Assembly (NCBI GenBank): GCA_029975165.1
Contig: JARKPR010000085.1
Span: 1 to 64,000, forward strand
Length of the DNA: 64,000 bases
Direction of reading: 5' to 3'
DNA from: Selenomonadales bacterium
GTDB taxonomy: Bacteria; Bacillota; Negativicutes; Sporomusales; UBA7701
The notes beneath the pieces are model-generated. The model was not told the DNA's origin, did no database searches, and saw only the letters and a list, made by a program, of their open reading frames with translations. Below, piece by piece: positions 7,215 through 23,155 of this stretch. Made by a program: the position numbers and the translations under genes. Each line of letters starts with the position of its first letter. The stretch's first letter is position 1.

Positions 7215-7249
7215 CTACTTAACCTTTCTCCTGGTCGGACGAGGCACAA

Positions 7250-7393
7250 CTAATTTCTGAGATGGTACGCGGCAATCCGGGGAAATAAAAGAAGGGCTCC
7301 GGCAAAATAAAGACTGGTGCCCACGGCGATAACCGAACATAATCCCCAAATGTTGTCGAGCTTCTCAAAACACCGGTAAATTGCTGACAGCGC
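7250..7393 (-). pseudogene. C-terminal remnant of a polytopic membrane protein (possible Wzx flippase)
   Basis: Directly after the TAG of the kinase homologue, and in the same frame, 47 codons read ALSAIYRCFEKLDNIWG, then a hydrophobic helix SVIAVGTSLYFAGALLLF, ending RIAAYHLRN and a stop. There is no start codon. It resembles the last helix of a MATE/MurJ-like polysaccharide flippase, the expected gene at this point of a Wzx/Wzy cluster. The rest of that gene is absent, which indicates a deletion. The flippase identity is inferred from context. Confidence 0.5.
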
Positions 7394-8059
7394 CTAAAAA
7401 ATAAGATCTTGCTCATCGCTCACGTTATGCAAAACAGTACCAATGATGTTGGCGCGGGCTCCCTTGAGTAACGCCAATACCTTCGAAGCGGTATGCACCC
7501 GCAGCGTTCGCGCCTCGACGAGCAGGATAACGCCGTCCACCCTTGAAGCAAGTACGCAGGCATCGGTGGCGATTTCGTTCGAAGCCACTACCAGTGGCGA
7601 GCAAGTATAAATAACCAAGTCGGCCAAAGTGTTCAATTGTTCGCCCAACTCTCGCAGCACCGGGTGAAAGAGAACATCGGAGGGGTTATTCGTCAAGGGG
7701 CCACTTGGCAGAATCTGCAGGTTGGTGATGCCGGGCGACTGCAGCATACTTTCCAGTTTGGCATTTTCGTAGATGATGTTCGTGATGCCGGCATTCAATA
7801 GACCGAAAACGTTGTGCAAGGTCGGGGTGCGGAAATTGCATTCGACAAGGATGATTTTTTTTCCGGTGTAGGCTAAACTGGTCGCAGTATTAGCGGCTGT
7901 TATACCGCTGCCCTCGCCTTGGCTGGCGCTGGCGAACAGTAACGCTTTGAGGCCGCTGGCGGTCTGTGCCGCCTGGATCTTGCCGCGCAGGGCACGAAAC
8001 GCTTCGGCGACAGGCGTCTGTTCCCTATCGGCGATAATGTATTCCCTATGCTGCGGCAT
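7394..8059 (-). CDS. BY-kinase-like CpsD/Wzc-C homologue with degenerate ATP site
   Basis: 221 residues aligning end to end with bacterial tyrosine kinases of the CpsD/CapB type that control polysaccharide chain length with a Wzz-like partner. All three nucleotide motifs are altered. Walker A reads GEGSGIT (48-54) where the family has GEGKSTT, so the lysine is missing. Walker A' reads LVECNFRTP (71-79) instead of LIDADLRRP. Walker B reads LVIYTCSP (148-155) instead of VIIDTPP. No C-terminal tyrosine cluster is present. The fold seems kept, so it may be a pseudokinase that works as a structural partner, or a gene in decay. It overlaps the upstream wzz-like gene by 14 bp. Confidence 0.8.
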   Translation of the reverse strand: MPQHREYIIADREQTPVAEAFRALRGKIQAAQTASGLKALLFASASQGEGSGITAANTATSLAYTGKKIILVECNFRTPTLHNVFGLLNAGITNIIYENAKLESMLQSPGITNLQILPSGPLTNNPSDVLFHPVLRELGEQLNTLADLVIYTCSPLVVASNEIATDACVLASRVDGVILLVEARTLRVHTASKVLALLKGARANIIGTVLHNVSDEQDLIF

Positions 8060-9512
8060 GTTTGGCCCTCCGGTGCTTTGACTTCCTGCCCGCCGGTATC
8101 AGGTTTTCCCAGAGGCCCAGCCAGAAGGATTTACTGCGCTTGGCCACGCGGTTATAGCAGGGGATGCTGCCGATGACGGGAATCCCCAGTTGCCGCAGAT
8201 CCTCGACTCGGTCGATCGTCTTGTAGAAGTAATCGGCAATAAAGGCGACGCTGACACCCGCGAACAGGCCCAAAACCACGGCGATCGCCAAATTCAATAG
8301 CCTGCGGGGCATGACCGGCTTTTCCGGCAAGGCGGCGTCATCGACCAACTGGATATTCGTAGGCAGCGTCATCTCAGTGATGCGCGCTTCGTCGAAACGC
8401 CGCGCCACCATAGTGTATGAATTTTCCGCCAAGGCATAGTCAAGCTGTAGACGCGCCAGTCCTTGTTCCGTTAACGGCAACTGGGACAGTTCCCTTTTTC
8501 CTTCGGCGGTGTGTTGGTCGAGCACAATCTTTTGCGCCCGGGCCTGGGCAAGATCGGCCTCGGCCTGAACCTTATTCTGCGCCAGTACTTGATAAACCGG
8601 ATTGTTCGATATCGTCTCCCGGTTCACGATTCTGGCGATTTCCGCCTGCAATTTTTCCCTGGTCGAGGTGATCGCTCCTTCAAGGGCGATCACCCGGGGA
8701 TGGGCATCGGTCATCGTCTTTTTAAGTCCGGCTAACTCGGTCTCCTGGTCGGCCAGCCGGCTCTTGAGCTGCTGGATAAGCGGATTGTCGGCGTAGTATC
8801 CGGGGTGCTCCCGGGCTATTTGCTGATTTATGCTATCGATCCTGGCCTGACTTGCCGCCATCGCCAGGCGGTTGTCGGCCATCTGTCGCGCCAGAGCCGA
8901 TTGTTTCTCAAGGAAGAGATTGGTCTGGCTGGTCGGGGTAACAGTTCCCTTGGTACGCTTATATTCGACAAGGGCTTTTTCGGCTTTATCGAGACTGTTC
9001 CTCGCTTCGGCCAAGTTTTCGGCCAGGAAGATTCGGGCCTGTTTGTTCTCGAAGCGGACGATTTCCGTCAGGCGTTCTCTGAACTCTTTGATAAGTGCGC
9101 TCGTCACCCGTTGGGCTTGCTGGGGCGAACGCGACTGGTAGCTGATTTTGAGGAGTTCGGTATTTTTCACCGGCTGGGCGTCGAGCGATTTGACAAATTC
9201 CTCGTAGGCGGGTTTGACGGCCGAGGCGGCGAATTCATTATCAATGACGGTTTCAACGACCACACGGCTCTTTACGATTTCAGCGTAGGTAAATATTTGC
9301 TGCTTGATCTGCTCGTCAGATATGGGTAAGTTTTGGTCGTTGTTCGTTCTGGCAATTTTGACGCGCATCGTTGCGGCGGCCTCGTACACCGGCGGCATGA
9401 AGACATTGATAAGTAGGGCAATACCGACAGATATACAGAAGAAATAGGCTATCAGCTTGCGTTGCCGGTTGAGGATCGCGACGAGATCCCGCAATTCGAA
9501 GTTTTCTTCCAT
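8046..9512 (-). CDS. Wzz/GumC-type polysaccharide co-polymerase (chain-length determinant)
   Basis: I chose the ATG at 9512 (MEENFELRDLVAIL), which has a GGAGG ribosome-binding site; the frame is open 14 codons further. The 488 residues give an inner-membrane helix near 20-40, a long periplasmic coiled-coil region, and a second helix near 405-430 preceded by the proline-rich LPEKPVMPRRLLNLA block of Wzz proteins. The cytoplasmic tail is short and basic. It should set chain length together with the polymerase and the exporter. It overlaps the kinase-like gene downstream, the split CpsC/CpsD arrangement typical of Firmicutes. Confidence 0.85.
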   Translation of the reverse strand: MEENFELRDLVAILNRQRKLIAYFFCISVGIALLINVFMPPVYEAAATMRVKIARTNNDQNLPISDEQIKQQIFTYAEIVKSRVVVETVIDNEFAASAVKPAYEEFVKSLDAQPVKNTELLKISYQSRSPQQAQRVTSALIKEFRERLTEIVRFENKQARIFLAENLAEARNSLDKAEKALVEYKRTKGTVTPTSQTNLFLEKQSALARQMADNRLAMAASQARIDSINQQIAREHPGYYADNPLIQQLKSRLADQETELAGLKKTMTDAHPRVIALEGAITSTREKLQAEIARIVNRETISNNPVYQVLAQNKVQAEADLAQARAQKIVLDQHTAEGKRELSQLPLTEQGLARLQLDYALAENSYTMVARRFDEARITEMTLPTNIQLVDDAALPEKPVMPRRLLNLAIAVVLGLFAGVSVAFIADYFYKTIDRVEDLRQLGIPVIGSIPCYNRVAKRSKSFWLGLWENLIPAGRKSKHRRAKHAAA

Positions 9513-9567
9513 GGAAGTGCCTCCAAGAGTGGTGTGCGATTCTCTTGTCCTCATGACGACGTCCGTC

Positions 9568-10206
9568 CTATGTGGTAGGCTGGTTCATCCAATGACGGAT
9601 CAACCATATCGGACTGACCATCGGCAAAACATCCTTGTTGATATCGATCTTGCCGTTATTCGTCAGGTAGACGATATCGCCGCTATTCAGCACATAGTTC
9701 TTACTGGTGTCGCCTCTTTTCAGCAAATCGAGCAAATTTACTTTTAAGGGGTTGTCTTGCGAACCGTTGCGGATGATATACACCTTGGTTTTGAGCGCCT
9801 CCTGCGTCCAGCCTTCTGCTTTGCCGATCGCATCCATCAGGGTATGGCTTTTTTCCAGATCGTAAGCCCCCGGTCGGGTGACCTGGCCGACGATATAAAT
9901 CCGCGTCGTGCCGAAGGTTTTTACCCCGACGTTGACGATCGGGTTTACATAGAATTTGCCCAGTTTTTCGGTCAGTTGGGAAGAAAGCTCAGCCACGGTC
10001 AGACCGGCGGCGACGACTTCTCCCACCGGCGGAAAGGTCACTTTTCCGTCCGGGCGAATGGTCGTCTCGGGGACATTCAGATCGACCATTCCGAAAACGC
10101 TGATCGACAGAACATCCCCCGGAATGAGGGCATAATCGCTGGCGTGTGCACTCACTGGCAGCAATGACAACAGAACAACCATCAAGAGCAGTTTCCATTG
10201 CTTCAT
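9568..10206 (-). CDS. Wza-like polysaccharide export protein
   Basis: 212 residues with a signal peptide (MKQWKLLLMVVLLSLLPVSAHA). Next comes the Poly_export domain starting YALIPGDVLSISVFG, with TIRPDGKVTFPPVGEV, then an SLBB domain IYIVGQVTRPGAYDL. It is shorter than E. coli Wza (about 380 residues) and lacks the extended C-terminal helix region except for an amphipathic end (PIWLIRHWMNQ). There is no lipobox cysteine. It should form the periplasmic/outer-membrane export ring, which implies a diderm cell. It is followed by the wzz-like gene 56 bp downstream. Confidence 0.85.
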   Translation of the reverse strand: MKQWKLLLMVVLLSLLPVSAHASDYALIPGDVLSISVFGMVDLNVPETTIRPDGKVTFPPVGEVVAAGLTVAELSSQLTEKLGKFYVNPIVNVGVKTFGTTRIYIVGQVTRPGAYDLEKSHTLMDAIGKAEGWTQEALKTKVYIIRNGSQDNPLKVNLLDLLKRGDTSKNYVLNSGDIVYLTNNGKIDINKDVLPMVSPIWLIRHWMNQPTT

Positions 10207-10300
10207 GCGCGCTACTCCCTATCGTTTAGAAAAGATTATTGTCGAAACTATGTATTTCCTATTTTGCCAAATTCGCTATATTGATAAAAAAACCTTTATT

Positions 10301-10316
10301 TTTCCATAATTTCTAC
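10301..10316 (-). promoter_or_regulatory. Leader motif shared with the pga operon
   Basis: Minus strand GTAGAAATTATGGAAA, just upstream of the wza-like gene. The pga leader carries the same sequence less one A at 22701-22715. A shared site upstream of two polysaccharide operons suggests a common regulator acting on DNA or on the leader RNA. Confidence 0.4.
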
Positions 10317-11467
10317 TATATATTGATATTTTTTGACGGCGTAGCGATGACAATCTCGTCGTAAACGGCCACTGTTCTGTTAATCATCGCCGGCAGGGTG
10401 AATAACTCTTCGAAGCGCTTCCTGGCATTGACACCCATTCTTTTTCTCAATGCAACGTCGTCATGAAGTTGGCGAAGACGACGGACCAGGCAATCCAGGT
10501 CGCCGGCAGGAATAAGAAAGCCGGTTTCGCCTTCGACCACCAACTCGTTCACGCCGCCGACGTTCGAGGCGACTACCGGCAATCCTTGACACATCGCTTC
10601 CAAGATACTGAGAGGCAACCCTTCCCAGTTGCTCGTAAGGGTGAAAACATCGCATCCGGCCAGAAGCTGATCGACATCCAGCCGCAACCCCAAAAACGCC
10701 ACATCGGCGCCTAACTGCAAATCGGCCGCCAGTTTTTCGTTCTGCGCCAGATCGGGGCCTTCGCCGATCAAAATCAACGAAACCCTTATTCCTTGCTTCT
10801 TAAGTACGGCGACCGCTTTTAATAACAACGGATGATCCTTCTGTTTACAGAATCTGGCCACCATCGCCAGTCGTAGGGGGCCGTGCTCTTTGGCGGCGAG
10901 TGCCGGCCTGGCGATATCGTCAACCCCGTTGTAAACAGTCACCAGTTTGTGGGCACTCTCCGGCATGGCCGCCGTTGCAAGCAGCCGATCAAATTCGGAA
11001 ACGCAGATTATCTTATTCGTCCATCTGGCCGCCAATTTCTCTAGCAGCCGGTAGACGAAGCGCTTACCGTGGGAAACGCCGACCGTGAACGACCAGCCGT
11101 GCACGGTAAACACCACCGGCACACGGCAGACCCTGGCGACGATTCGCCCAATGAAGCTCGCCTTGCTGGAATGACAATGAATTAAGTCCGGGCCGACTTC
11201 CCGGACTATTTTCAGCAGACCGAAAAGCGCTTTCAAGTCGTTGAGGGGCGAAATCGGCCTGATCAGCGACGGCAGGTCGATGAGATGCGTGTTCGACTTT
11301 TGCAGCTCGTCCCACAGCCAGAGATGCTCGCCCATGACCAGATGGGCCTCAATATTTAACGGCAAGCCTGCTATCAGCGCGTTAACGTGGACCTGCGCGC
11401 CGCCAAGATTGCCGTTGGTGATTACGTACAACACCTTCAATGGCCTGTCCATATTGGCAACATTCAT
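10316..11467 (-). CDS. Glycosyltransferase, GT4 family
   Basis: 383 residues, GT-B fold. The N-terminus KVLYVITNGNLGGAQVHVNALI contains the GGAQ glycine loop of GT4 enzymes. The donor domain has FTLTSNWEGLPLSILEAMCQGLPVVASNVGG with the E-x7-E motif. By family and position right after the priming transferase it probably adds the second sugar of the repeat unit on undecaprenyl diphosphate. It starts 7 bp after the priming transferase stop, so the pair is one transcription unit. Confidence 0.88.
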   Translation of the reverse strand: MNVANMDRPLKVLYVITNGNLGGAQVHVNALIAGLPLNIEAHLVMGEHLWLWDELQKSNTHLIDLPSLIRPISPLNDLKALFGLLKIVREVGPDLIHCHSSKASFIGRIVARVCRVPVVFTVHGWSFTVGVSHGKRFVYRLLEKLAARWTNKIICVSEFDRLLATAAMPESAHKLVTVYNGVDDIARPALAAKEHGPLRLAMVARFCKQKDHPLLLKAVAVLKKQGIRVSLILIGEGPDLAQNEKLAADLQLGADVAFLGLRLDVDQLLAGCDVFTLTSNWEGLPLSILEAMCQGLPVVASNVGGVNELVVEGETGFLIPAGDLDCLVRRLRQLHDDVALRKRMGVNARKRFEELFTLPAMINRTVAVYDEIVIATPSKNINI

Positions 11468-11474
11468 GGCAGCA

Positions 11475-12908
11475 TCAAACCATCCTTCTCCCGGAGCCTC
11501 CGGGTTCCGGTTCTGCGGCTTCGTACAGCGGACGCGAAGTCGTTTTGCCGACGCTCTTCCGCCGGTATTTGCTCAGATCGGCTTTTAGGGCCTCCCGTTT
11601 GACGCCCTGGGTGCTGCTCTTTGTCACCAGCACCTTCAACGTCTGAAGGATGATCATCAGGTCGGTAATTACGTTGTACTGCTGGATATATATCAAATCG
11701 TAGGCTAATTTGTCGCGGGGGATAGTGTTGTATTTACCGTAAACCTGCGCCATGCCGGTTATGCCGGGCTGGACGTTATGGCGATAAACATACTCCGGCA
11801 TCTCCTGTTTGAACTTGGCCACGAAAAACGGCCGTTCCGGCCTGGGGCCGACGGTGCTCATATCGCCAAGCAGAACGTTGAGAAATTGCGGCAGTTCGTC
11901 AATGCGGGTAGCCCTGAGAAAACGGCCGACGGCTGTGATCCGTTGGTCGTTTTCCTCCGCCAGGATAGGGCCGGTGAAAAACTCGGCGTCCTGCCGCATC
12001 GTACGGAATTTGAATATCCGGAAAGGCTTCTCGTCCAAGCCGCTACGAATTTGGGTGTAAAACACCGGCCCGGCGCTGTCGAGTTTGATCGCCAGGGCAA
12101 CGATGAGAAAAAACGGCCAGAGAAAAAGCAATGCCGCGCTCGAAACGACGATGTCGAAGATACGTTTCAATGTGCGCTGTTCAATGGAAGGCTTCAAATA
12201 CCGCGGGCGAAACACAGGAATGTCGTCGATCTTGTCCAACGATACGCTGCTGCAAAAAAGTTCGTAAAATCCGGGAACGATCAATACCTGTTTGTTGTGA
12301 ACGTGGCAGTAATGAATGATGTCCGCCTTATTGACCGTGGTAAGTTCGGAGCAGATAATGAAAAGGTCGATTTCGTCGGCGATCGGTTGCCACCGTCCGT
12401 CGAGGCAGACATATTTAACCATGTATTTGAGGTGTGGCTGGCCCTCCAGGTGGGCAACCACACGCTCGCATTCGGCCCTGTTGCCGAGCAGCAAAGCGCG
12501 GCGGGGCCTGACAAGGGCATTCTCAAGCCGCCAGAAAAAATACTTCCAGATAGCCAGCAATACGAACTGCATCGCCATGGCCACCAGCAGGATACTGCGC
12601 GAATAACTGAATTCACGGATAAAGAAGCTGATCGCCATGAGGATGATCATCATATTCATCATGGCGACCGCCAAGCTGACGATTACTTCGTAGTATTTTT
12701 TGAAGGCCAAGGAGAATAAACCATAAATATTGAACAGTAAGCCGCACACGACCACCATGACCGGCAGCATGCTTTTATACACGTCCATTTCAACTATAAC
12801 ACCGCTGTAGCCAACGACAATATTCACCGCGGCGTCGGCGACGGCGATGATTATCAGCATATCTCCCACTAGCAGCAATACCCTGAGGGCTCGGGGTATT
12901 TTAAGCAT
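11475..12908 (-). CDS. Undecaprenyl-phosphate sugar phosphotransferase (priming transferase, WbaP-like)
   Basis: 477 residues. The N-terminal half has four to five membrane helices (about 8-125), then a nucleotide-binding-like linker, and the C-terminal Bac_transf catalytic domain from about residue 250: KRIFDIVVSSAALLFLWP re-entrant helix, FRIFKFRTMR, DELPQFLNVLLGDMSTVGPRPE and YDLIYIQQYN. It moves a sugar-1-phosphate onto undecaprenyl phosphate to start each repeat unit. It heads the Wzx/Wzy-type half of the locus, about 110 bp behind the pgaD-bcsB fusion gene. Confidence 0.9.
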   Translation of the reverse strand: MLKIPRALRVLLLVGDMLIIIAVADAAVNIVVGYSGVIVEMDVYKSMLPVMVVVCGLLFNIYGLFSLAFKKYYEVIVSLAVAMMNMMIILMAISFFIREFSYSRSILLVAMAMQFVLLAIWKYFFWRLENALVRPRRALLLGNRAECERVVAHLEGQPHLKYMVKYVCLDGRWQPIADEIDLFIICSELTTVNKADIIHYCHVHNKQVLIVPGFYELFCSSVSLDKIDDIPVFRPRYLKPSIEQRTLKRIFDIVVSSAALLFLWPFFLIVALAIKLDSAGPVFYTQIRSGLDEKPFRIFKFRTMRQDAEFFTGPILAEENDQRITAVGRFLRATRIDELPQFLNVLLGDMSTVGPRPERPFFVAKFKQEMPEYVYRHNVQPGITGMAQVYGKYNTIPRDKLAYDLIYIQQYNVITDLMIILQTLKVLVTKSSTQGVKREALKADLSKYRRKSVGKTTSRPLYEAAEPEPGGSGRRMV

Positions 12909-12944
12909 ACCAAGGTCCCTTCCTCTAGCCGTCTAAAGCCATTT

Positions 12945-12974
12945 CCGGCAGGTAGCGCATAGCCTACCTGCCGG
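12945..12974 (-). promoter_or_regulatory. Perfect inverted repeat between the pga and EPS gene sets
   Basis: CCGGCAGGTA (12945-12954) pairs perfectly with TACCTGCCGG (12965-12974) around a 10-nt loop. It has no U-run, so it is not a classic terminator. It could stabilise or attenuate the transcript between the two halves of the locus, or be an operator. Confidence 0.5.
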
Positions 12975-13021
12975 TTTGACGCACCATCTATGCGGCTACA
13001 ATCCTCACGCCGTAAGGGAAG

Positions 13022-15796
13022 TTATTTCTTTCTGCCGCCGACGCGGCCGAAGAGCAGATTGACGACGATAAGCAGCAGAACTATGCCCAGACCCCACAAC
13101 AACGGTGTCTGCCAGCGCTTCACCAACGCCACTGCCTTGTACCAGACCGTCTTGAACCAGGTAGTGTAGGTGGACGAGAAATCCTCGCCGATTATCTTTA
13201 CTGAGCGGCTGTCGACCGACAGCATCTGAGGGTCGCCGTTATACACGAGGATATCCCCGGCGAGAGTGTCGTAGCTTTTCGTATCTTGCAAATAGCGCAG
13301 CGCCTCGGTAAGTATGCCGACCTGCAGGTTCGCTGATAAGCTGACCATCGGGATCCCCTGATAGTTGCCTACCTGACCGACCACGGTGTTTACGGCCGGC
13401 TGATAACGATAGATCACCGACTGATCGTCTTTTTTGTAAATTGTATAATTCTTCGTGCGCTGTAGGGGTATGCCGGCCTGGAATCCCTCCGGGATCTCGT
13501 CGACCAGCCCCAACAGGATAAGATAGACTGGTTTGGCGGCCGGACTGTAATCTTTCGTGCTATAGACGGATGGCAAGGCATGTGTGCCGGGCGGCAGCTG
13601 GCTGTTCAGCCAGGCGACCGTTTCTGCCACCGCGCGGATTATATCCTCTGACGCATAATCGCTGATAACGATAGCGCCTTTCTTGTTGAACAGGATGCCG
13701 ATATTCTGCCAGTTGAACTCATCGAAGGATAGGTGGTCCTTGCCTTGAAAGTAGCTGGACTTGAGAATCTGAGCCGTCTGGGATATGCCGTCGACTTTGC
13801 AGTTGGCGGTCTCGAAAGGATAGACAAATTCAAGGCCCAGCGCGTTGCGCGCCTTTAGCGGCACGGAAGGGGGGAAGTAGATTTCTTTGTCGAGGATGCC
13901 GCTGTCATCCAACAGTTCGCTGTGAATAAGCGTACGGTTGGCAAAAACGTCCAGCCTGGCCTGCTTGCCGGCGATGTTGCTGGGGCTGTAGCGGCCCTGG
14001 AGGCGCACTTTCAGACTCCCCGGCACTTCTTCGAGCAACGCCGGGTAAAGTTTAAAATCGACCCCCACGGTCAGAATATCGGACTGGGAGGTGGTGTTGC
14101 CGAAAAAGACCTTGCCTTTTTCCTTGTCTTTGCTTTCAGCCTGGTTTTGGACGCTGATATTGATGCTGGCACTGGGAATAGCGGCCAGTATCTCCGGGGA
14201 AGTCAACTGGCGGGCCATTTGGCCGAGGATTTCGCCATCGTTCGCCGTTATCAGCAAGGTGTCGGCGAAGGGGAGGTGGAGACCGTCGCCGTAAGCGGAC
14301 ATCGCTGCCGGCAAGTTTGCCTTGCTTGTCACCCAGACCCGCGGGATGCCCTCATATTGGGCCCGTTCCTTTTCAAAGATGAATTTCACCGGCAGATGAG
14401 AATAATAACGCTTGAGAATCCCATAAGTCCATGCCCCCGCAGATATCTCGGCCGGGGAGGGCTTGTCGGGAACGATGACCACAACGCCGCGGGCGATGGT
14501 CGAGAGAAATTCCGCCACCGTCCTGGGGGCAGGATTGTTAAAATTATAGGTTATCGAAGATGAGTTGCGGAGAATGTAAGACAGGTAGCCGCGCTGATAA
14601 TCGACGCAGATGCGGTCGGTCGCATAAACGTGGGCCGATATCGTGAGTTTTGCTGGACCCAGTATGCCGATATCGGGCGGCAAGGCCAACTGGACGTTCG
14701 GTCTGGCCTTCAGTTGGCCGGCCGAATAGATGCCGAGCGATTTATCGTTGAGATAGAAAGTAAAGGTACTGTTGTCATTCAAAAATTTCCCCGGCTCGAC
14801 CACCAGGTTGATTGTGCTACCAGGGAGCAGCGGCACGCGCGGCAAGGGGAAAGTAATCGGCAGGTCGCTATTTGACCCTATCACGGTTATATCGTCAGCA
14901 TAGCCCAGCTGTTTAAGGGAAAATGTGTTCGCAACCGCCTCGGCGGAGAGCGGGGTGTAAAGTACCAGCAACAGCAGAATACTGGCGACAATCTCCTTGA
15001 TTGGCAGACTTACCCGTTTAATCTGGATGCCGTCTTTGTCGTCAAGTGCGCACACGGCCATTTTGACCTCCCTTGCTTCCTCCACAACCGCCAGAGGTAC
15101 TTTATAGAACGCGGCCACCTCGGCATCGCTCATTACCGGCCGCGGTTTACGCCGGCTGAGGCGGCCGTACCGCCAGTAGTTCCAGCTAGCCCACGAGAAC
15201 AGGATGATAAAGGACACCAAACCCAAATAGAAAATGAATTTGAACATGAAGGTGGTTGCCTCGATTGCGGAAAGAGAAAACACCTGCGTCTGGAAAAGAC
15301 GGACCCCGGCCAGCCACATGACAACGGTAAAAATCGGCTGCAGCAGATTGAGGAAAATCGCCCACACCGCCACCGACAGCACCGTTTCAACGCCGCGGTT
15401 AACAGGCTTGTTCAGGCGGTAATCGTCGATAATTATTTCGCTTTCTTTGCGGACCTGCTCGGAATATACCTCATCCTTCGGCTCAGGCGACCTGTCGTGT
15501 GACATCGACCTGCCGATGAATCTGATGCAGGAAATAAGCAAGAATAGTGCGATAAGGCCGTAAGAGGCGATAATCACGATCGGTAATGACAACATGAAGT
15601 TTTCTGGGCTCCAGTCAAAAGCCTGCCCAAGCAGCACCAACGGGCCGAGGATCAGTCCGGCTTTCAGAAAGCGCGAAACCTTGCTGGACCCGTCTTTAGA
15701 CTGTTGTTCGCTTGAGGTCTTGGGCACATTTGCGGCCCACCCGCCTTTAGACCGCAGCCTTCTTTCCCTTCGCGGCGGGAATGGAATAGGTTCCAT
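13022..15796 (-). CDS. PgaD-like/BcsB-like fusion protein
   Basis: 924 residues with a composite plan. Residues 43-60 and 70-92 are two membrane helices. Residues ~118-235 look like PgaD: two helices (~135-163, ~184-205) ending in WNYWRYGRLSRRKPRP, then a cytoplasmic stretch. A further helix at ~268-283 leads to a large extracytoplasmic region that matches the cellulose synthase subunit BcsB (ITFPLPRVPLLPGSTINLVVE near 315, then alternating carbohydrate-binding and ferredoxin-like modules), closed by a C-terminal helix (~895-917) and a basic tail. PgaD is the small partner of PgaC in PNAG synthesis, and BcsB guides nascent cellulose. A single chain carrying both types beside a PgaC-like synthase suggests it binds the synthase and receives the polymer in the periplasm. 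Assignment rests on motif memory, not a search. Confidence 0.75.
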   Translation of the reverse strand: MEPIPFPPRRERRLRSKGGWAANVPKTSSEQQSKDGSSKVSRFLKAGLILGPLVLLGQAFDWSPENFMLSLPIVIIASYGLIALFLLISCIRFIGRSMSHDRSPEPKDEVYSEQVRKESEIIIDDYRLNKPVNRGVETVLSVAVWAIFLNLLQPIFTVVMWLAGVRLFQTQVFSLSAIEATTFMFKFIFYLGLVSFIILFSWASWNYWRYGRLSRRKPRPVMSDAEVAAFYKVPLAVVEEAREVKMAVCALDDKDGIQIKRVSLPIKEIVASILLLLVLYTPLSAEAVANTFSLKQLGYADDITVIGSNSDLPITFPLPRVPLLPGSTINLVVEPGKFLNDNSTFTFYLNDKSLGIYSAGQLKARPNVQLALPPDIGILGPAKLTISAHVYATDRICVDYQRGYLSYILRNSSSITYNFNNPAPRTVAEFLSTIARGVVVIVPDKPSPAEISAGAWTYGILKRYYSHLPVKFIFEKERAQYEGIPRVWVTSKANLPAAMSAYGDGLHLPFADTLLITANDGEILGQMARQLTSPEILAAIPSASINISVQNQAESKDKEKGKVFFGNTTSQSDILTVGVDFKLYPALLEEVPGSLKVRLQGRYSPSNIAGKQARLDVFANRTLIHSELLDDSGILDKEIYFPPSVPLKARNALGLEFVYPFETANCKVDGISQTAQILKSSYFQGKDHLSFDEFNWQNIGILFNKKGAIVISDYASEDIIRAVAETVAWLNSQLPPGTHALPSVYSTKDYSPAAKPVYLILLGLVDEIPEGFQAGIPLQRTKNYTIYKKDDQSVIYRYQPAVNTVVGQVGNYQGIPMVSLSANLQVGILTEALRYLQDTKSYDTLAGDILVYNGDPQMLSVDSRSVKIIGEDFSSTYTTWFKTVWYKAVALVKRWQTPLLWGLGIVLLLIVVNLLFGRVGGRKK

Positions 15797-15844
15797 CTAT
15801 ACTGTTCTCCTTTCGCATCGGCATTCGGTCTTTATATACCCTGA

Positions 15845-17086
15845 CTAAAGCTTTGGCGATAGTCCGCGGTCCGGACTCTTCCATACCGCACGTTGGCCCA
15901 TGCGGCGGAAAAGTCCGCGCGGCGTGGCCTTCACAACCGCCAGAGCGGCTATGATCCAGTAGATGAACGGATACCAGATGACCCAGAAATGATACCATAA
16001 GATGGTCTTTTCGTAGCGACGGTCGATGAACATCGCCACTCCCGACTGGATCAGACACAGGGCGACCAGGATAGTGCCTTTCCATTCGGGGAATATCTTC
16101 ACCACCGGGAACGGATGGGGGATAACCAGGCTTATCAGCCACAGCATGCCGAAAACAACGTAGGTAAACGACCAGAGCACGGAAACCACATACTCGATAT
16201 AAATCGGCCAAAGACGGCGCTGCCGCCAGTCGAACCAGATATCGGTATGCCGGCGAATGACCTCGATACCGCCCTGCGCCCAGCGGACCCGCTGTTTCCA
16301 AAGTCCGCCCAGCGTCTCCGGAACGAGGATCCAGCAGAGGGCATTGGGCTCGTAACGTATGTCCCAGAACTTTTTCTCCAGCTTCCAGGTGATGTTGATG
16401 TCGTCGGTAATCATGTCGAAATCCCAGAGGCCGATCTCGAACAGCGCCCGACGGCGAAAAGCCACCACAACGCCGGAAACGGTAAGCACCTTGCCAAGAA
16501 TACGCTGGGTGCGCTTGATCATGCCGATAACGGACGAATACTCGCCTACTTGGATCTTGGCCAGCAGGCTGGTACGGTTGCGCACCCGCGGGTTGCCGGT
16601 TACTGCGCCGACCCTGGGGCCGGTGACAAAATGACTCACCATCCAACGGATAGCGTGTTCGTCAAGATAAGCATCGGCGTCGATGGATACGATTATCTCG
16701 CCGTTGCAGGCCATGGCACCGCACCGCAAAGCCGAGGGCTTGCCGACGTTGGTTTCCATCACGATCGTCCGCAGGCGGGGATGCTCCGTGGCGAGCTGGC
16801 GGAGGATATGGGGCGTTTCGTCCTTGCTGCCGTCATCGACGACGATAACTTCGAAGTTGGGATAATCGGAGGCCAGAACGCTCAAAACCGTATTGCGGAT
16901 CGCACCTTGTTCGTTATGGGCCGGAATCAGTACCGACACAAACGGATACTCGGCAAGGACGGGCGGTTGCTGGGTATGGCGAGCTTCGCGGCGCAGGAAG
17001 AAAAAAATGGCGCCGACCGTCCAGGCTATGCTCATGGTCAGAGGATAGTAAAAGATAAATTCCTCGAGAAACTCCAGCAGGTCCAA
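15845..17086 (-). CDS. pgaC: PgaC-like poly-beta-1,6-GlcNAc synthase, GT2 family
   Basis: 413 residues. One N-terminal helix (~15-32), the GT2 core FVSVLIPAHNEQGAI (49-63), VVDDGSKDET (82-91), metal-site SIDADAY (134-140), acceptor-side ITDDINI (226-232) and the processive synthase signature QRVRW (265-269), then three to four C-terminal helices. This is the PgaC/IcaA layout (E. coli PgaC is about 440 residues). The enzyme should polymerise GlcNAc from UDP-GlcNAc and pass the chain through the inner membrane. It lies between pgaB-like and pgaD-bcsB genes with short gaps. The sugar could differ from GlcNAc; the PgaB neighbour supports an N-acetylated one. Confidence 0.85.
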   Translation of the reverse strand: MDLLEFLEEFIFYYPLTMSIAWTVGAIFFFLRREARHTQQPPVLAEYPFVSVLIPAHNEQGAIRNTVLSVLASDYPNFEVIVVDDGSKDETPHILRQLATEHPRLRTIVMETNVGKPSALRCGAMACNGEIIVSIDADAYLDEHAIRWMVSHFVTGPRVGAVTGNPRVRNRTSLLAKIQVGEYSSVIGMIKRTQRILGKVLTVSGVVVAFRRRALFEIGLWDFDMITDDINITWKLEKKFWDIRYEPNALCWILVPETLGGLWKQRVRWAQGGIEVIRRHTDIWFDWRQRRLWPIYIEYVVSVLWSFTYVVFGMLWLISLVIPHPFPVVKIFPEWKGTILVALCLIQSGVAMFIDRRYEKTILWYHFWVIWYPFIYWIIAALAVVKATPRGLFRRMGQRAVWKSPDRGLSPKL

Positions 17087-17146
17087 GAATCACCCTCCTT
17101 TCGCGGGCCGGCCGGGCTGGCGACCCTTTGCCGAGACACCGTCACT

Positions 17147-19030
17147 CTAATAGGTCAGAAGTTCGTCTTTGCTGGAGAACACGTTAAGGGGGTAGTAGCT
17201 GAAGAGAGTGGCGCCGCCTGCTTTTAAAGCCCGGACGTGATTTTCCAGTTCGCGCGCGGAGAGCCATTTCTTTTTCCACCAATCATAGGTTTGCAGCTTG
17301 AATACTACCTTGTTCTTTGCGCCGGGCTGGGATAGCGCGGCCCGCGCCAGGTTTTGCAGCCATTCGGCGGGGTTATCCGCTTTCTCCATATAAGGATAGG
17401 CCATGACAACCGTATAATCGTACAAGTTGAGATAATCGTTAAAGTCCTGGCTCAGCCATATCGGGCCGTTGGGGTCAAGGATGGCGGGCGCGTAAATGTT
17501 GCGGGCCACCATCGTCTGCGGGCGATATACCCTGACCTCGTTGGCCAGTTCCACCGTCAGGTCGTTAAGGGTCCGGATTTTGATGCGGGCCCATTCTTTC
17601 TGAATCTCGGGATCTTTCAAAGCTTCAGGCGTCATATCGCGGTTGAAGCGGGCCCGGAAAACCGCCTTGGCGGCGGGCGAAGCATCTTCGAAGTCGCTGA
17701 GGTAAACGTCATCCTGGAAAAGGATGCCGTCAAAGGGCGGGTTGTAGGCAGCGAAATCGCGGAACAAATGCCTCAGTTTTTCCCGCACCTGCGGGCTGAA
17801 GGGCGAAGCCCGTCGGTACCAGCCCTCTTTGCCGGTCTCGATGGGCTGGACGGCGTCTTCCGGATGATCCTTGACCAGCCACTGGCAGGCCAGCGAAGGC
17901 ATCCAGGCATATACGAAAAGCCCTGCCGCCTGCAGCTTCTGGACCACGTGGCTGAACACATTGGCCTTCACCGGGCCGGCCGTGGTATGGAAGTAAACCT
18001 GGCGGATATTGCCGTCGCCCTTGTCGTCGGCAAAGGCCTGCAACACGACGATATTGGTACCGGAACGGTTCAGCAGGTGGGCGACGCTATCGATATTCTG
18101 CTCTAATCGCACCGGCGACTCATCATAGATATAATCCAGATCGAGCTGCGCCATTTTCGGCATCGGCTTCACATTGGCAGTCGAGATGGTTTTCGTGAAC
18201 TCCTTCTCGCCGGGACTGCCATAGATGATCGTCCGCTTGATCCCCATCTTCTGGTGGAGGCTCGCCGTCACATCGTCGCCAAGCATCAGGAACGTCTCGA
18301 AGCCGGCCTGTTTGGCGACCTCGACCGCAATCAGCGAATACTCGCCGAACGGCCAGGTCAGCACTTTGACCGGATGCCCGAGATTGCCCGCCAGTACCTC
18401 CTGGGATCTTTGCAAATCGGCGGCGACGCGGTTTTTGTACGCTTCAGGCGTTTCGTACTGTCCGTTGCGATATTCCAGCGCCACGGCTGCCGGCGTGTCT
18501 TCGACGGGAAACGTGTCGGTCTCCAGGAACTTGTGGAGGGCGTGGGTATGCGAAGCGATTGTCACCAACCCGGAAGCTTCCATCTCCCGCATCTGCTCCC
18601 AGGTGACCAGCGGTCCTATGCCGGGGGGCGGGCCGCTCTGCAGCCAGGAAGTGACGACCGAAAATACGGCCGGGTAACCGTAATCTTTAAGCAGCGGATA
18701 CACGTCTCGGTAAAAAGACTGATAACCGTCGTCAAAGGTTATCAGCACCGGCTTATCCGGCAGGACGGCCAAGCCCTGCTGGGCCTGAACATACTGCTCC
18801 ACGGAAATGGGGTGGTAGCCGTTGGCCTTTAGAATATTGAAATGGTCGACTAACTGCTCTTTCCGGATGGTATAAGGGTTCTTTTTATCCGGCCCCACAT
18901 CGTGATAACACAAGGAAATAACATTTTGAATCCCGGCGGCGTAGCCTATCGCCGCCGGCAATAGCAGCAGCGGCGCCAGCAGCAACGCCCCCAGCAGGCG
19001 TCGGCAGAAAGCATGCATTGTCATGTTCAC
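17147..19030 (-). CDS. pgaB: PgaB-like poly-GlcNAc N-deacetylase with C-terminal hydrolase domain
   Basis: 627 residues with a signal peptide (~10-31) and no lipobox cysteine, unlike the E. coli lipoprotein. The N-terminal CE4 deacetylase has LCYHDV (40-45), ITFDDGY (97-103) and SHTHALH (160-166), giving the metal-binding Asp/His/His set. The C-terminal half matches the PgaB GHL13 domain: LDLDYIYDESP, a HTTAG segment, FVYAWMPSL, and FDGILFQDDVYLSDFED with the paired catalytic aspartates. It should partly deacetylate and trim the polymer in the periplasm before export. GTG at 19030 abuts the pgaA stop; the ATG at 19024 is better placed behind GGTAGGTG. The coupling shows one operon. Confidence 0.88.
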   Translation of the reverse strand: MNMTMHAFCRRLLGALLLAPLLLLPAAIGYAAGIQNVISLCYHDVGPDKKNPYTIRKEQLVDHFNILKANGYHPISVEQYVQAQQGLAVLPDKPVLITFDDGYQSFYRDVYPLLKDYGYPAVFSVVTSWLQSGPPPGIGPLVTWEQMREMEASGLVTIASHTHALHKFLETDTFPVEDTPAAVALEYRNGQYETPEAYKNRVAADLQRSQEVLAGNLGHPVKVLTWPFGEYSLIAVEVAKQAGFETFLMLGDDVTASLHQKMGIKRTIIYGSPGEKEFTKTISTANVKPMPKMAQLDLDYIYDESPVRLEQNIDSVAHLLNRSGTNIVVLQAFADDKGDGNIRQVYFHTTAGPVKANVFSHVVQKLQAAGLFVYAWMPSLACQWLVKDHPEDAVQPIETGKEGWYRRASPFSPQVREKLRHLFRDFAAYNPPFDGILFQDDVYLSDFEDASPAAKAVFRARFNRDMTPEALKDPEIQKEWARIKIRTLNDLTVELANEVRVYRPQTMVARNIYAPAILDPNGPIWLSQDFNDYLNLYDYTVVMAYPYMEKADNPAEWLQNLARAALSQPGAKNKVVFKLQTYDWWKKKWLSARELENHVRALKAGGATLFSYYPLNVFSSKDELLTY

Positions 19031-22000
19031 CTACCACGTCACGCGATACAATAGTTCGTACTGGCGGTAGCTATAGCGGAGACTGTCGCCGGTAAAGTTG
19101 TCGGAATGCAGACCGTATTCGGCGGCCAGCATCAGCGAATGATTGGCGGAAAAATTGGCGCCATACTCCAGGCGGAAAAAGGGCTGGAAATTCAGGGATT
19201 CCGGCGAATCTTTGCCCCAGGCCAAATTCGAGGTAAACTGCCAATAAGACATCGGCAGGTTTCTCCGCCAGGCCCAGCCTACGCCGACCATTTCCCGCAT
19301 GGGCGGGCTCTCGTATACATCATCCCGCTGGAACTTCCAGTAATTGCGGCTCCAGTACAGATAGCGCGTCAGCGATTTGTAATCGCGGTCGTAAAGCTGA
19401 TAAGCGTGATCGATATTGAACCCGAAGGTACTATTGTCGTCGGTCAGAGAACCGCGTGTCAGATTGATCGAGTAATTCTCCTTCCGCGATACCCTATACG
19501 AATATGTGACGCCGGAATAAACGGCCCCGATCGGATTGCCGCTGGCGGCCTTGAGGGCCTGTACGTCGCGGATGGGTTCACCGCGTGCGAAAAGGCCCAA
19601 AGTGGCCTGGTCGGAAAGATGCACGTCCGCCGACACATCCCATCGGTTGAAGCCGCCTGCATCCGGTGAGATCCGGTCTTTCGTGTACATGACCCGCCAG
19701 TCGAGATTCGGGTTGCTTTGGCGGAGCCCGATGCTCATGCTGTTCATCGTGATGCGCTCTTTGGTGGCGGTATCGTCCAGCCGCAGGCGGCCGACACCCG
19801 CCAGAATGCGGTAGTTGTCGCCGATATTCTGTTCGGCGGAAAGCTGCATTTCCCAGGACTGATGCTGTTTATAGCTGTTGTTGTACACGAAGCCAGCGGA
19901 GACTTCGCCCCGCTGCCGATCCTGGTTGTAGCCCTGCATTGCGGCTACGGCCGAACTGCGGCCGTATTTCGTCTCGATTTGGCCGGTGATGCGGCGCAGG
20001 TCGTCGTACTCGCCCATTTCGTACGCCATCCTGCCCATGCCCATCAAAGACACCTTTTCATATTCCGGCCACGCGCCCAAAGCGGCGAACTGTTTATAGG
20101 CCGCCCGGGGCAGGTCGTTGCCGGCCAGCGCTTCTGCATATCTCAGGCGGTACGCCGGTTGATCGGGGAAACGGCGGATGACCAGTTCGAACAGACTCTT
20201 GCCCTGGGTGTAGTACTGCCCGGTCATCAGGGTCTCGGCGTCGCGCAGCACCAGCGGGGCGTTGGATGGGCTCAATGTCAGCAGCTTGTCGTAGACGGCC
20301 AGGCTCTGCACCATCTTGCCGTCGAACATCATCGCGAACGCCATCCCGAATTGGGCATTGTTATCGTTGGGGTCGCGGGAGAGGACGAGTTCGTATATTT
20401 TTACCGCCTGCCCGTATTCCTTGAGCTGGATGTGGCAATCGATCAAGGCCCTGAGGCCGAAGACCGGCGCCTTGCCGTAATCCGGCCAGATATGCTTGGC
20501 CTCCATGACGGCCTGCCGATATTTCCCGTGGTTGCGAAGCGCCAGTAAATAGTCGCCTTGCATATTCAGCGTGGCGGTGCCTTTGACGATGAAGGGCTTC
20601 AACACCTTTGCCGCCTTGTCGGGCTGGCCGGCGTTGATCAGCGCCGCCGCGAACAGACCCTGGATTTCTGTTTCCCGCTGGGCGTACTGGGATTGGGTTT
20701 GCGTAATCTTTTGCGCCTTGTCAAAATCGGTGACCGCGTTGGCATACTCGCCGGCGAAATAATACATGTTGGCCCGGCTGAGGTAAACATCGAGATCGTA
20801 GGGGTCCTGGCGGAGCAGTTCTTCATAAATCGCCTGGGCTGCTTTCACGTCGCTCAAGCGCATCAGCGTCTCGGCCTGCCAGATGCGGGCCCGCTTGTCG
20901 CCGCCGGCGGCCAGCTTGGCAAAAATATCATGTGCCTTGCGGTAATCGCCGTGCTGATAATACGCGCTGCCCGCGCTGCGGACAACATAATCGGGGACCT
21001 CGGCCCCCTTCGGGAGCTTTTCGTACAGCTCGGTGGCCGATTCGGTGCTTCCCGCCCAGGAAAGAACCGTGATATAATCGTACGTAACCTTGAGATCGGC
21101 CGGGTTGGCCTGATACAGCAGGCGGAAAATCGCCAGCGATTCGCTGTAACTCGCGTTGCGGCCGAGGGTTACCGCCTGCTCGTGGAGCTTGGCGCGTTCG
21201 GCGGGGTCGGTATACTGCTGGCCGACCTGGCGGGCGACGGTTGCGGCATTCGCATCCTTGGCCGGTGTATCCGTCGTCGCCTTATCGGCGGTCATGATGG
21301 CGTTCATTGTTTTATCGGTCGGCGCATTGGCCGTCGTCGCCGCCAACACGGCCGCTGTCGCCGACCTTCCGGCTACGGCCGCGGTTTTCGGAACCTTGGG
21401 CTTGGCGATGGCGTGCCCCGGCGCATACATTGCCAAGGCCCGGGTATATGCCTGGCGATATTCCAGCTTCTGGGGGAACATTGCCACCGTTTTTTCGAAT
21501 AAAGCTTTGCCGCCGAGCAGATTGCCCTGCGCCAAAAGGGCGGTGGCATCCTCCACCGCGGTGGGCGCAAGCTGCGGGGCCGCCTGGAGCGTATCGGCGT
21601 AAAGCCGTATCCCTTCGAGATAGCGGCCGCCGTAAATAAGGGCGTACGCCTGCCCGGCCCTGCCGGCCATATTTCCGGGTTCGCGTTGCAGCGCAGCCTG
21701 GTAGAGGGGAAGAGCTTCGACCGCGCGGCCGGTCCGGGCATAACAATCGCCCAGGGCTACAATACCATCCACTGGAGCCTGCGACAGATCAGGCCACAGC
21801 GCCTTGGCTTCATCGATAGCAGCGGCGGCATTGCCGCTACGGCCCAAAGCGGTGATATAATCGACCTTAGCGACGGCAGTGGCTTGTCCGCTTTTGACGA
21901 GCGGCGACAAAACCTGCAGCGCGTCGTCGTACGAACCGGCGCCGACAAGGGCGGCGGCCAGCGATTCCAACAAAGCGCCGGAGGCGGCGCCCTGTTTATT

Positions 22001-22606
22001 TTTCAACAATACAGCGGTACCAAGATCGGCGGCCGCTTTGTCATATTGCTGCCGTTCGAGGTAAAGCGCGCCGCGCTGTTGGTACAGCATGGCATCGGCG
22101 GGGTTGGCGGCAATCAGCGCCGTATAGGCCGCCTCGGCCTCGGTCCAGCGGCCCAGGGCAGCCAGGCTTTCCGCCTCGCCCACCCGAGCTTTTGCGTAGC
22201 CGCCGGCGGCGGCATCGCGATATAAACCAAGCGCCTTCTCCCAATTTCCCTGGCTCGCATAGGCTGTGCCCAGCGCATAAACGGTATCGGCCGGGAAAAC
22301 GGTTTTGCCGGTCCGGGCGTAGACATTGACAGCAGCAGCCATGTTACCCGCTCTGGTGAGGGCAGTAATATACTCAGCGGCAATTTGACTGTTGCCGGGA
22401 TTCTGTTCCAGCAGGGAACGCAATACCGATACGGCCGCAGCGTATTTTTGCTTGGCAATAAGTTTTTTGGCGCTGGCAAACGCCGCCGCCTGGTCCTCGG
22501 CGAGAATTTCCTGCGCGGGTAACTGAACGGGAGCCGCAGCGGCAGGATTATAATTGGCGGCGATAGCCCCGGCCAGAACGGTCCAGAATAGTTTTGTCTG
22601 CTTCAC
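19031..22606 (-). CDS. pgaA: PgaA-like outer-membrane export porin with duplicated TPR domain
   Basis: 1191 residues, against about 807 for E. coli PgaA. A signal peptide (~1-25) is followed by a TPR superhelix (~35-400), an Ala/Thr-rich linker (~405-460), a second TPR superhelix (~465-840) that repeats the first almost motif by motif (for example EAKALWPDL versus EAKHIWPDY), and a C-terminal beta-barrel (~900-1191) ending in W. It should bind the deacetylated polymer with the TPRs and export it across the outer membrane. The extra length is explained by the TPR duplication. First gene of the operon; pgaB follows with no gap. Confidence 0.85.
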   Translation of the reverse strand: MKQTKLFWTVLAGAIAANYNPAAAAPVQLPAQEILAEDQAAAFASAKKLIAKQKYAAAVSVLRSLLEQNPGNSQIAAEYITALTRAGNMAAAVNVYARTGKTVFPADTVYALGTAYASQGNWEKALGLYRDAAAGGYAKARVGEAESLAALGRWTEAEAAYTALIAANPADAMLYQQRGALYLERQQYDKAAADLGTAVLLKNKQGAASGALLESLAAALVGAGSYDDALQVLSPLVKSGQATAVAKVDYITALGRSGNAAAAIDEAKALWPDLSQAPVDGIVALGDCYARTGRAVEALPLYQAALQREPGNMAGRAGQAYALIYGGRYLEGIRLYADTLQAAPQLAPTAVEDATALLAQGNLLGGKALFEKTVAMFPQKLEYRQAYTRALAMYAPGHAIAKPKVPKTAAVAGRSATAAVLAATTANAPTDKTMNAIMTADKATTDTPAKDANAATVARQVGQQYTDPAERAKLHEQAVTLGRNASYSESLAIFRLLYQANPADLKVTYDYITVLSWAGSTESATELYEKLPKGAEVPDYVVRSAGSAYYQHGDYRKAHDIFAKLAAGGDKRARIWQAETLMRLSDVKAAQAIYEELLRQDPYDLDVYLSRANMYYFAGEYANAVTDFDKAQKITQTQSQYAQRETEIQGLFAAALINAGQPDKAAKVLKPFIVKGTATLNMQGDYLLALRNHGKYRQAVMEAKHIWPDYGKAPVFGLRALIDCHIQLKEYGQAVKIYELVLSRDPNDNNAQFGMAFAMMFDGKMVQSLAVYDKLLTLSPSNAPLVLRDAETLMTGQYYTQGKSLFELVIRRFPDQPAYRLRYAEALAGNDLPRAAYKQFAALGAWPEYEKVSLMGMGRMAYEMGEYDDLRRITGQIETKYGRSSAVAAMQGYNQDRQRGEVSAGFVYNNSYKQHQSWEMQLSAEQNIGDNYRILAGVGRLRLDDTATKERITMNSMSIGLRQSNPNLDWRVMYTKDRISPDAGGFNRWDVSADVHLSDQATLGLFARGEPIRDVQALKAASGNPIGAVYSGVTYSYRVSRKENYSINLTRGSLTDDNSTFGFNIDHAYQLYDRDYKSLTRYLYWSRNYWKFQRDDVYESPPMREMVGVGWAWRRNLPMSYWQFTSNLAWGKDSPESLNFQPFFRLEYGANFSANHSLMLAAEYGLHSDNFTGDSLRYSYRQYELLYRVTW

Positions 22607-22700
22607 CGAAAAACCTCCCGGCAGACAGCCTGTTTAAACAAAACTAACCCCACAAACGCAACGGGGCTTTTCCTTGCCACGAATATTTCTGCGAATCATA

Positions 22701-22763
22701 TTTCCATAATTCTACATACTTATGGTAATTCCTGCAAAATTCTACGACTTTATGGTAATTCCT
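22701..22763 (-). promoter_or_regulatory. Two 26-bp direct repeats plus shared motif in the pga leader
   Basis: Two copies of an A/T-rich unit (minus strand AGGAATTACCATAA then GTAGAATT) sit at 22708-22733 and 22738-22763, exactly 30 bp apart, about three helical turns. The first runs into ATGGAAA, forming the motif shared with the wza leader (10301-10316). They lie downstream of the predicted transcription start, so they could be operators or RNA sites. The repeated AGGAA would also suit CsrA-type binding, which is known for E. coli pgaA. Confidence 0.55.
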
Positions 22764-22789
22764 TAAAGAAAATTGTTATTTTTTCAGAT

Positions 22790-22819
22790 TTTATAGATAT
22801 TCAGTGTAGTTTTTGTCGA
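22790..22819 (-). promoter_or_regulatory. Predicted sigma-A promoter of the pga operon
   Basis: Minus strand -35 TCGACA (22819-22814), 18-bp spacer, -10 TATAAA (22795-22790). Each box matches five of six consensus bases. Transcription would begin near 22783 and give a leader of about 175 nt before pgaA. Confidence 0.6.
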
Positions 22820-22906
22820 GAACAACTTCCATAGATGGCTTATTATGGCAAGATTTATTTGCCGCCACTGGGTTTTATGCCCCAACGTTGATGCTGTTGC
22901 TGCGCC

Positions 22907-22938
22907 AACCGGGGGAAATTCCTTCTGCCGGTTTTTTT
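22907..22938 (+). terminator. Short hairpin with T7 tail in the divergent intergenic region
   Basis: AACCGG (22907-22912) pairs with CCGGTT (22928-22933), followed by a T-run to 22938. No plus-strand gene precedes it. It may end an antisense or unannotated short transcript. Confidence 0.35.
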
Positions 22939-23014
22939 CGCCACCCCAGTGCCGGTTAAACATAAACCCTCGACAATATAATCAATTGTGTAAACTTTAT
23001 AATTGACTGTAAAC

Positions 23015-23068: not shown

Positions 23069-23100
23069 ATAAGGAAAGTTAATTCTTCAAATTTCGGCTC

Positions 23101-23129: not shown

Positions 23130-23155
23130 AAAGCTTGTAAATAGGATGGATGATA

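Follow-up and report, generated by a model that had tools for sequence, protein, structure and literature searches.

A window of 64,000 nucleotides (nt), the whole stretch of DNA analysed here, was taken from a Selenomonadales bacterium (assembly GCA_029975165.1, contig JARKPR010000085.1, positions 1 to 64,000). On its minus strand lies a gene that joins proteins of two different polysaccharide synthases: a PgaD-like membrane domain, as in poly-N-acetylglucosamine (poly-GlcNAc, PNAG) systems, and a BcsB-like periplasmic domain, as in cellulose synthases. It is probably a selected, inherited gene fusion within a PNAG operon, with the BcsB-like half taking part in poly-GlcNAc export. A complete signal-peptidase I motif is kept at the junction of the two halves, and the mature machine may therefore hold two chains. 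The gene and its parts are as follows.

13022..15796, minus strand: PgaD/BcsB-like fusion gene, an unbroken open reading frame (ORF) of 924 codons with no internal stop
15434..15796, minus strand: N-terminal extension, residues 1-121, with an Arg-rich tail and two hydrophobic stretches
15035..15433, minus strand: PgaD domain, residues 122-254, two transmembrane helices followed by a conserved WNYWRYGRLxRRK tail
14936..15010, minus strand: internal former signal peptide or further hydrophobic segment, residues 263-287
14936..14944, minus strand: presumed signal-peptidase I site A285-E286-A287, with P282 at -6
13202..14935, minus strand: BcsB-like periplasmic region, residues 288-865, with predicted carbohydrate-binding-like (CBD) and flavodoxin-like (FD) domains in the order CBD1-FD1-CBD2-FD2
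13040..13168, minus strand: C-terminal membrane anchor helix, residues 877-919 in the AlphaFold model and 899-917 by hydropathy

Both halves of the protein are recognized by curated profiles. In Pfam, PgaD (PF13994) matches residues 122-254 with an E-value of 1.4e-15 (58 bits, cut-off 27), and BcsB (PF03170) matches two stretches with an E-value of 1.4e-12 (47.2 bits, cut-off 21), the best covering residues 290-420. The NCBIfam equivalog PGA_PgaD (TIGR03940) is also exceeded (56.9 bits, cut-off 31.45), whereas the cellulose BcsB equivalog NF008324 gives 12 bits against a cut-off of 972. Both halves are therefore real, and the second is a relative of BcsB rather than an ordinary cellulose BcsB. 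The two other fusions found, in the genomes denoted G012 and G015, likewise exceed the curated cut-offs in both halves. In the window's own genome (G000) the fusion is the only PF03170 match, and there is one PgaD match. An initial annotation, made from the letters alone, had described this 924-residue fusion without its strand and had named the two Pfam families; the profiles bear it out, and the terminal helix that it reported is found by hydropathy and by model alike. The two helices of the PgaD domain lie at 142-160 and 182-200 by hydropathy. Two extra helices had been placed ahead of them. By eye, hydrophobic stretches are present at about 44-60 and 69-93, and the AlphaFold model has low-confidence helices at 28-59 and 64-99, but the hydropathy scan picks out both stretches only in G012, flagging just the second one in the window fusion (73-91) and in G015 (62-80). 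A similar extension occurs in six of eight unfused PgaDs (G038, G132, G040, G035, G011 and G014; not G048 or G036). Within its Arg-rich tail (window 15700-15796), an RRxR.. pattern is shared by all three fusions and G132, and an Arg run is visible by eye in G038. The pattern is absent from the first 50 residues of the partnerless PgaDs of G040, G035, G014, G011 and G036, and also from G048, which has a partner.

The assignment of the second half is extended by structural modelling. For the whole protein AlphaFold gives a weak model (mean predicted local distance difference test score, pLDDT, 61), yet every one of the 21 Foldseek matches it has at E <= 0.001 is a BcsB-containing chain. A model of the BcsB half by itself, built from eight sequences, reaches a pLDDT of 74.4 and a predicted template modelling score (pTM) of 0.65. 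The top 22 Foldseek matches of this model are again all BcsB-containing chains, the E. coli BcsB crown being matched with E 3e-27 and template modelling (TM) scores of 0.58/0.60. Fusion residues 284-864 align with chain 9fmt_B of that crown over 530 residues (Z 20.7, root-mean-square deviation 5.0 Å). A BcsB architecture is supported by the model: the aligned span covers the periplasmic part, including both carbohydrate-binding-like domains and both flavodoxin-like ones. Searches of PDB sequences with the fusion (phmmer) and with a profile of seven BcsB-like relatives gave no match at E up to 1, and no solved relative of E. coli PgaD was found among the same sequences.

The fusion is the fourth gene of a pgaA-B-C-[D+BcsB-like] cluster, all on one strand. 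The gaps are 48 nt between the fusion and pgaC, 60 nt between pgaC and pgaB, and 0 nt between pgaB and pgaA.

15845..17086, minus strand: pgaC, poly-GlcNAc synthase, 413 amino acids (TIGR03937, 544.7 bits, cut-off 422.3)
17147..19030, minus strand: pgaB, N-deacetylase and glycoside hydrolase, 627 amino acids (TIGR03938, 553.7 bits, cut-off 321.9)
19031..22606, minus strand: pgaA-like tetratricopeptide repeat (TPR) outer-membrane exporter, 1191 amino acids (best NCBIfam match TIGR03939, 162 bits, cut-off 366.65)

The PNAG-type operon that the initial annotation proposed is supported by these profiles and by three genomes: PgaC and PgaB exceed their equivalog cut-offs, and the TPR protein has PgaA as its best match, at a score below the cut-off of that model. 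QxxRW and a C-terminal SPDRG are common to the PgaC proteins of the window and of E. coli. The window PgaB keeps the residues aligned to H55, D114, D115, H184, H189, D466, D467, D472 and E474 of E. coli, which we take to be the catalytic positions. By eye, no lipobox is seen in the first 35 residues of PgaB from the window, G012, G015 or G132, unlike in E. coli; it may be speculated that an inner-membrane scaffold could therefore matter more. The PgaA-like protein is longer than E. coli PgaA (807 residues) and than the corresponding ORFs of G015, G038, G132 and G048 (747-970 amino acids).

The arrangement recurs. A protein search of 60 genomes, G000 included, found the full fusion also in G012 (a frame of 912 residues, 45% identical within the match) and G015 (914 residues, 46%), which belong to other families of the order. 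A further figure for the identity of these two fusions is 42-44%. The order pgaA-B-C-fusion is seen in G000 and G015. G038 has two adjoining genes, pgaD and bcsB-like, in place of the fusion; pgaA-B-C-D-bcsB-like thus occurs as separate genes in G038 and, with a 4-nt overlap, in G132, while in G048 the BcsB-like gene sits at the opposite end of the pga cluster. The PgaC proteins of G015, G038 and G132 are above the equivalog cut-off. Across the class, PgaD is found in 35 of 380 genomes and PF03170 in eight, a count that misses G012. A profile built from seven BcsB-like rows matches seven of the 380, namely its own seven rows: three fusions (G000, G012 and G015), two genes beside pgaD (G038 and G132), G048 and G124. 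In G124, which has no PgaD match, the gene adjoins a family 2 glycosyltransferase (GT2) synthase with an MshEN domain (MshEN-GT2). BcsB-like and PgaD proteins coincide in six genomes (hypergeometric P 2.6e-6, uncorrected for relatedness). In samples of the phylum, the BcsB-like profile is matched in 5 of 398 genomes and PgaD in 7 of 378, and among those matches only the window frame has both domains. A plasmid search gave no match at 1e-5. Scans of genome contigs, which rely on few short peptide patterns and are no census, gave nothing with the single fusion protein and, with two patterns from the three-fusion alignment, one match, G012 itself.

Two trees bear on descent. In a BcsB tree of 14 rows, in which E. 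coli BcsB and five further members of the BcsB family are the outside rows, the pga-linked and MshEN-linked BcsB-like proteins group (100/98) apart from all six. The three fusions group within it (82/92), and the three fusion genomes also group in the PgaC tree (90/82). Caution is called for by long branches (E. coli, G691), by outside rows that join on long branches and by four rows of deviating composition. Nor are the outside rows established as cellulose partners: in G013, G016 and G516 the neighbouring enzyme reaches 179-185 bits with PgaC_IcaA (cut-off 422.3) and scores lower with cellulose synthase models. The simplest reading of the sequences is one fusion event from a gene pair like that of G038 or G132.

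What happened to the second gene's start is visible at the junction. In four of the seven aligned BcsB-like proteins (G038, G132, G048 and G124) the gene begins with a hydrophobic, signal-peptide-like stretch, which in the fusions comes behind the PgaD tail. Signal peptidase I sites consist of a hydrophobic core, a helix breaker and small residues at -3 and -1, and all three fusions have these features. Between residues 246 and 295 only A247, I273, P282, A285 and A287 are invariant among them. P282, A285 and A287 occupy positions -6, -3 and -1 of the motif, while -5, -4, -2 and +1 to +8 vary, and A285-E286-A287 is the sole conserved A-x-A of the whole 924-residue fusion alignment. The -1 Ala is kept in all seven aligned BcsB-like proteins, and is no longer invariant once the distant G691 is added. 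As a control, P..A.A was sought in mechanically called ORFs of the fetched stretches, one of which overlaps another: it follows 10 of 896 internal hydrophobic segments, five of these rows being the three fusions, and 10 of 218 N-terminal ones. The PgaD and BcsB-like halves are about equally constrained (invariant residues among the fusions: PgaD core 28/85, PgaD tail 18/39, CBD1-FD1 86/239, CBD2-FD2 96/265). The linker (1/17), the internal hydrophobic stretch (1/19), the N-terminal extension, the other membrane segments outside the PgaD core (1/21 and 1/25) and the C-terminal helix (4/48) are not. In G036 a long ORF of 910 residues (L068:17171-19901) has, near residue 516, a further P..A.A behind an internal hydrophobic segment; the ORF may have a wrong start, or the segment may be another internal signal peptide.

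The pattern of conservation at the junction resembles that of a cleavage site in use, short of proof. With the signal peptide of a once separate BcsB-like gene kept and its motif intact, the balance tips towards a polyprotein that is cut at the internal signal peptide. A likeness may be seen in the FbcH cytochrome b/c1 polyprotein of Bradyrhizobium, in which a signal peptide connects a membrane protein with a periplasmic one and signal peptidase makes the cut; that system belongs to a respiratory complex, and cleavage there has reportedly been shown by experiment. The chain could instead stay whole, the former signal peptide serving as a plain transmembrane helix that ties PgaD covalently to the BcsB-like domain. 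The internal segment is hydrophobic enough to span the membrane, the variable linker ahead of it looks like a tether, and BcsA-BcsB single-chain fusions exist according to passages of PMC8461298. An unused site would be expected to erode, and the retention of Pro -6, Ala -3 and Ala -1 in all three fusions, amid a stretch that otherwise drifts, makes an uncut chain somewhat doubtful, if a serious contender. Internal translation was also considered, from an ATG at residue 246 of the window fusion (15059-15061) that GGAGG precedes by 5 nt. The corresponding place in G012 offers no candidate, a GTG with GAGG lying instead at residue 232, and in G015 none has a Shine-Dalgarno-like run; as it is not conserved, the candidate was not relied upon.

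In other systems PgaD binds PgaC and cyclic di-GMP (c-di-GMP), activating synthesis. For the machine with the cleaved fusion, the following steps are proposed. (i) The PgaD half would join PgaC in the inner membrane, presumably as a c-di-GMP-dependent activator. (ii) PgaC would synthesize the poly-GlcNAc chain. (iii) The BcsB-like half, periplasmic on its C-terminal anchor, would take up the chain leaving PgaC and hand it on to PgaB and PgaA. (iv) Signal peptidase I would cut after A287, giving equal amounts of PgaD and of a mature, tail-anchored BcsB-like subunit. BcsB itself is described in passages of PMC8461298 as periplasmic, with a C-terminal anchor helix touching BcsA, and as a hexamer that may guide cellulose. 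Given that known place, receipt of the nascent chain by the BcsB-like part before PgaB is plausible by analogy. The complete picture combines a PNAG synthase bearing a BcsB-type crown as chain guide, activator and crown supplied 1:1 from one polyprotein cut by signal peptidase I, and a BcsB-type co-polymerase recruited to PgaCD in diderm Firmicutes; it is put forward tentatively, at slightly less than an even chance.

The product could be another GlcNAc-like or modified polymer, to which the BcsB-like part is tuned as in the Pss system of Listeria. The polymer of Listeria monocytogenes is thought to be distinct from cellulose and PNAG, according to passages of PMC4125290; PssC and PssD there are an IcaA/HmsR-like glycosyltransferase and a BcsB ortholog. 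BcsB-like genes of G124 (L084:4149-7996) and, more distantly, G691 (L100:2465-6388) adjoin glycosyltransferases with an N-terminal, c-di-GMP-binding MshEN domain, probably a further c-di-GMP-controlled type of synthase with a BcsB partner. BcsB-family genes of two members of the class and one of the phylum stand beside enzymes whose best NCBIfam model is PgaC_IcaA, at scores below its cut-off:

L085:7416-10753 (G013, same class): GT2 and BcsB-family pair, no PgaD in the pair
L086:7770-11080 (G016, same class): GT2 and BcsB-family pair, no PgaD in the pair
L102:7611-10971 (G516, same phylum): GT2 and BcsB-family pair, no PgaD in the pair

Set against this, PgaC and PgaB of the window exceed their equivalog cut-offs, and the deacetylase and hydrolase residues of PgaB are intact; a product other than PNAG is therefore rated unlikely. 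Cellulose is not favoured, since the genome has no BcsB-family match apart from the fusion, which lies next to a gene for a PgaC equivalog.

A bystander BcsB domain, vestigial and riding on PgaD without a role in export, is very improbable. Eleven genomes have a pga cluster without a BcsB-like gene in the stretch read, yet the BcsB-like part is constrained like the PgaD core (36% versus 33% invariant) and is encoded by a separate neighbouring gene in G038 and G132 and within the cluster of G048. An assembly or frameshift artefact joining two genes, the error against which the initial annotation had warned, has next to no probability and is taken as refuted: the same architecture, with an alignable junction, occurs in three genomes of three families, and the gene has no internal stop and lies inside a 207-kb contig.

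Several observations nevertheless weigh against the favoured reading. The fusion is uncommon, being present in 3 of the 380 genomes of the class. Gene surroundings of up to 20 kb were read for the window and 18 other genomes, namely 17 of the other 34 PgaD genomes plus G049, where a PgaD-like ORF occurs without pgaC. In the following genomes pgaD is a gene by itself in the pga cluster, and the stretch read contains no BcsB-like gene:

G011, G014, G031, G035, G036, G037, G040, G052, G057, G129 and G272

The BcsB-like gene is therefore not needed for the pga system as such. The sequence similarity to BcsB is remote, the PDB sequence searches being empty, and the PgaA-like protein falls under the cut-off of its family (162 versus 366.65 bits). 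The fusion group is moderately supported (82/92). G124, although without PgaD, falls among the pga-linked rows; these do not appear as a clade of their own, because G124 and G048 branch beside the five fused or split rows. At the junction, drift around the motif is not special, because the other membrane segments outside the PgaD core drift too, and the three fusions are related and hence are not three independent tests. Finally, pgaABC of G012 sit on another contig than its fusion. This contig, of 5.2 kb, stops at a 77-nt repeat (L099 end) 132 nt beyond pgaC; a second copy lies immediately ahead of the fusion on the other contig (L054 upstream of 16380). The G012 operon was likely broken in assembly at this repeat, although this is not proven, because the fusion contig continues beyond the repeat into other genes.

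Known systems share parts of this design. E. coli-type pgaABCD has the same pgaA-B-C order, the PgaC and PgaB equivalogs and a PgaD domain beside PgaC; its PgaD has 137 residues, whereas that of the fusion has an N-terminal extension and runs on into a signal peptide and a BcsB-like scaffold. Cellulose-synthase BcsB has the four-domain periplasmic fold, the signal-peptide-like start and the C-terminal membrane anchor, but the partner of the fusion is PgaC and not BcsA, its tree group is separate from E. coli BcsB, and the BcsB equivalog score is 12 against 972 bits. The Listeria operon differs in lacking other ica/hms genes and in that PssE senses c-di-GMP, and no fusion is mentioned in the passages of PMC4125290 concerned. 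The pairs of G013, G016 and G516 are perhaps Listeria Pss-like systems; they differ from the window in enzyme score, in having no PgaD match in G013 and G016, and in BcsB rows that lie outside the fusion group. A 'cellulose-type' label for G013 and G016 was rejected: with 179-183 bits for PgaC_IcaA and 112-115 for CelA, their enzymes stay below every cut-off, and their BcsB-family proteins match BcsB models at scores far below the cut-offs. As these enzymes are PgaC/IcaA-like, the pairing of PgaC with BcsB comes nearer to known cases. Parts of a synthase complex are also fused in BcsA-BcsB single-chain cellulose synthases (passages of PMC8461298 and PMC7112194), where BcsB is joined to its own catalytic partner and not to PgaD. 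Fusions of BcsAB and BcsZC are both recorded in passages of PMC7112194; in the 12 of 15 places shown of this exopolysaccharide-operon survey, supplements aside, no PgaD-BcsB fusion appears. No description of such a fusion, or of BcsB within an operon with PgaD, PgaB and an equivalog-grade PgaC, was found in the passages retrieved from openly licensed PMC papers. The initial annotation likewise knew of no described fusion of this kind, while a BcsB partner beside a PgaC/IcaA-like enzyme is known from Listeria PssC/PssD and is present in the class in G013 and G016. The novelty is therefore to be sought in the fusion and in its setting, a pga operon with PgaD. This precedent and the signal-peptidase I motif were both missed by the initial annotation.

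Some further features of the surroundings are recorded here. A second polysaccharide gene set (6237-12908, same strand) begins 113 nt after the fusion, with Bac_transf, a family 4 glycosyltransferase (GT4), Poly_export, Wzz, a tyrosine-kinase-like gene and GT2. The window genome has 23 GGDEF matches. Four congener genomes have no PgaC-grade match (best 53 bits) and no PgaD, and the operon is therefore accessory in the genus. Rfam gave no match within window 9000-24000. Promoter-like sites number 11, against 6.1 (standard deviation 2.3) in shuffles, and terminator-like sites 20, against 12.1 (standard deviation 3.7), none worth building on. Elsewhere, G033 has a PgaC-PgaD fusion of 598 residues (L063:8101-9897) with a weak PgaD match (23.8 bits, just below the cut-off of 27), and G014 has a pga cluster in the order C-D-A-B-B with two tandem pgaB genes (L061:3920-12149).

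To our knowledge, the E. coli pga system has no dedicated inner-membrane-anchored scaffold for transit of the chain from PgaC to PgaB and PgaA. A natural PgaD-BcsB fusion links the two best-studied synthase systems and suggests that polymer guiding by the BcsB fold is not confined to cellulose, an idea that can be tested in a single gene. Cleavage at the internal signal peptide would, in addition, make the gene product a bacterial polyprotein in which the proportion of membrane activator to periplasmic subunit is fixed. Components of two sugar-secretion machines seem to have been combined in a few diderm Firmicutes.

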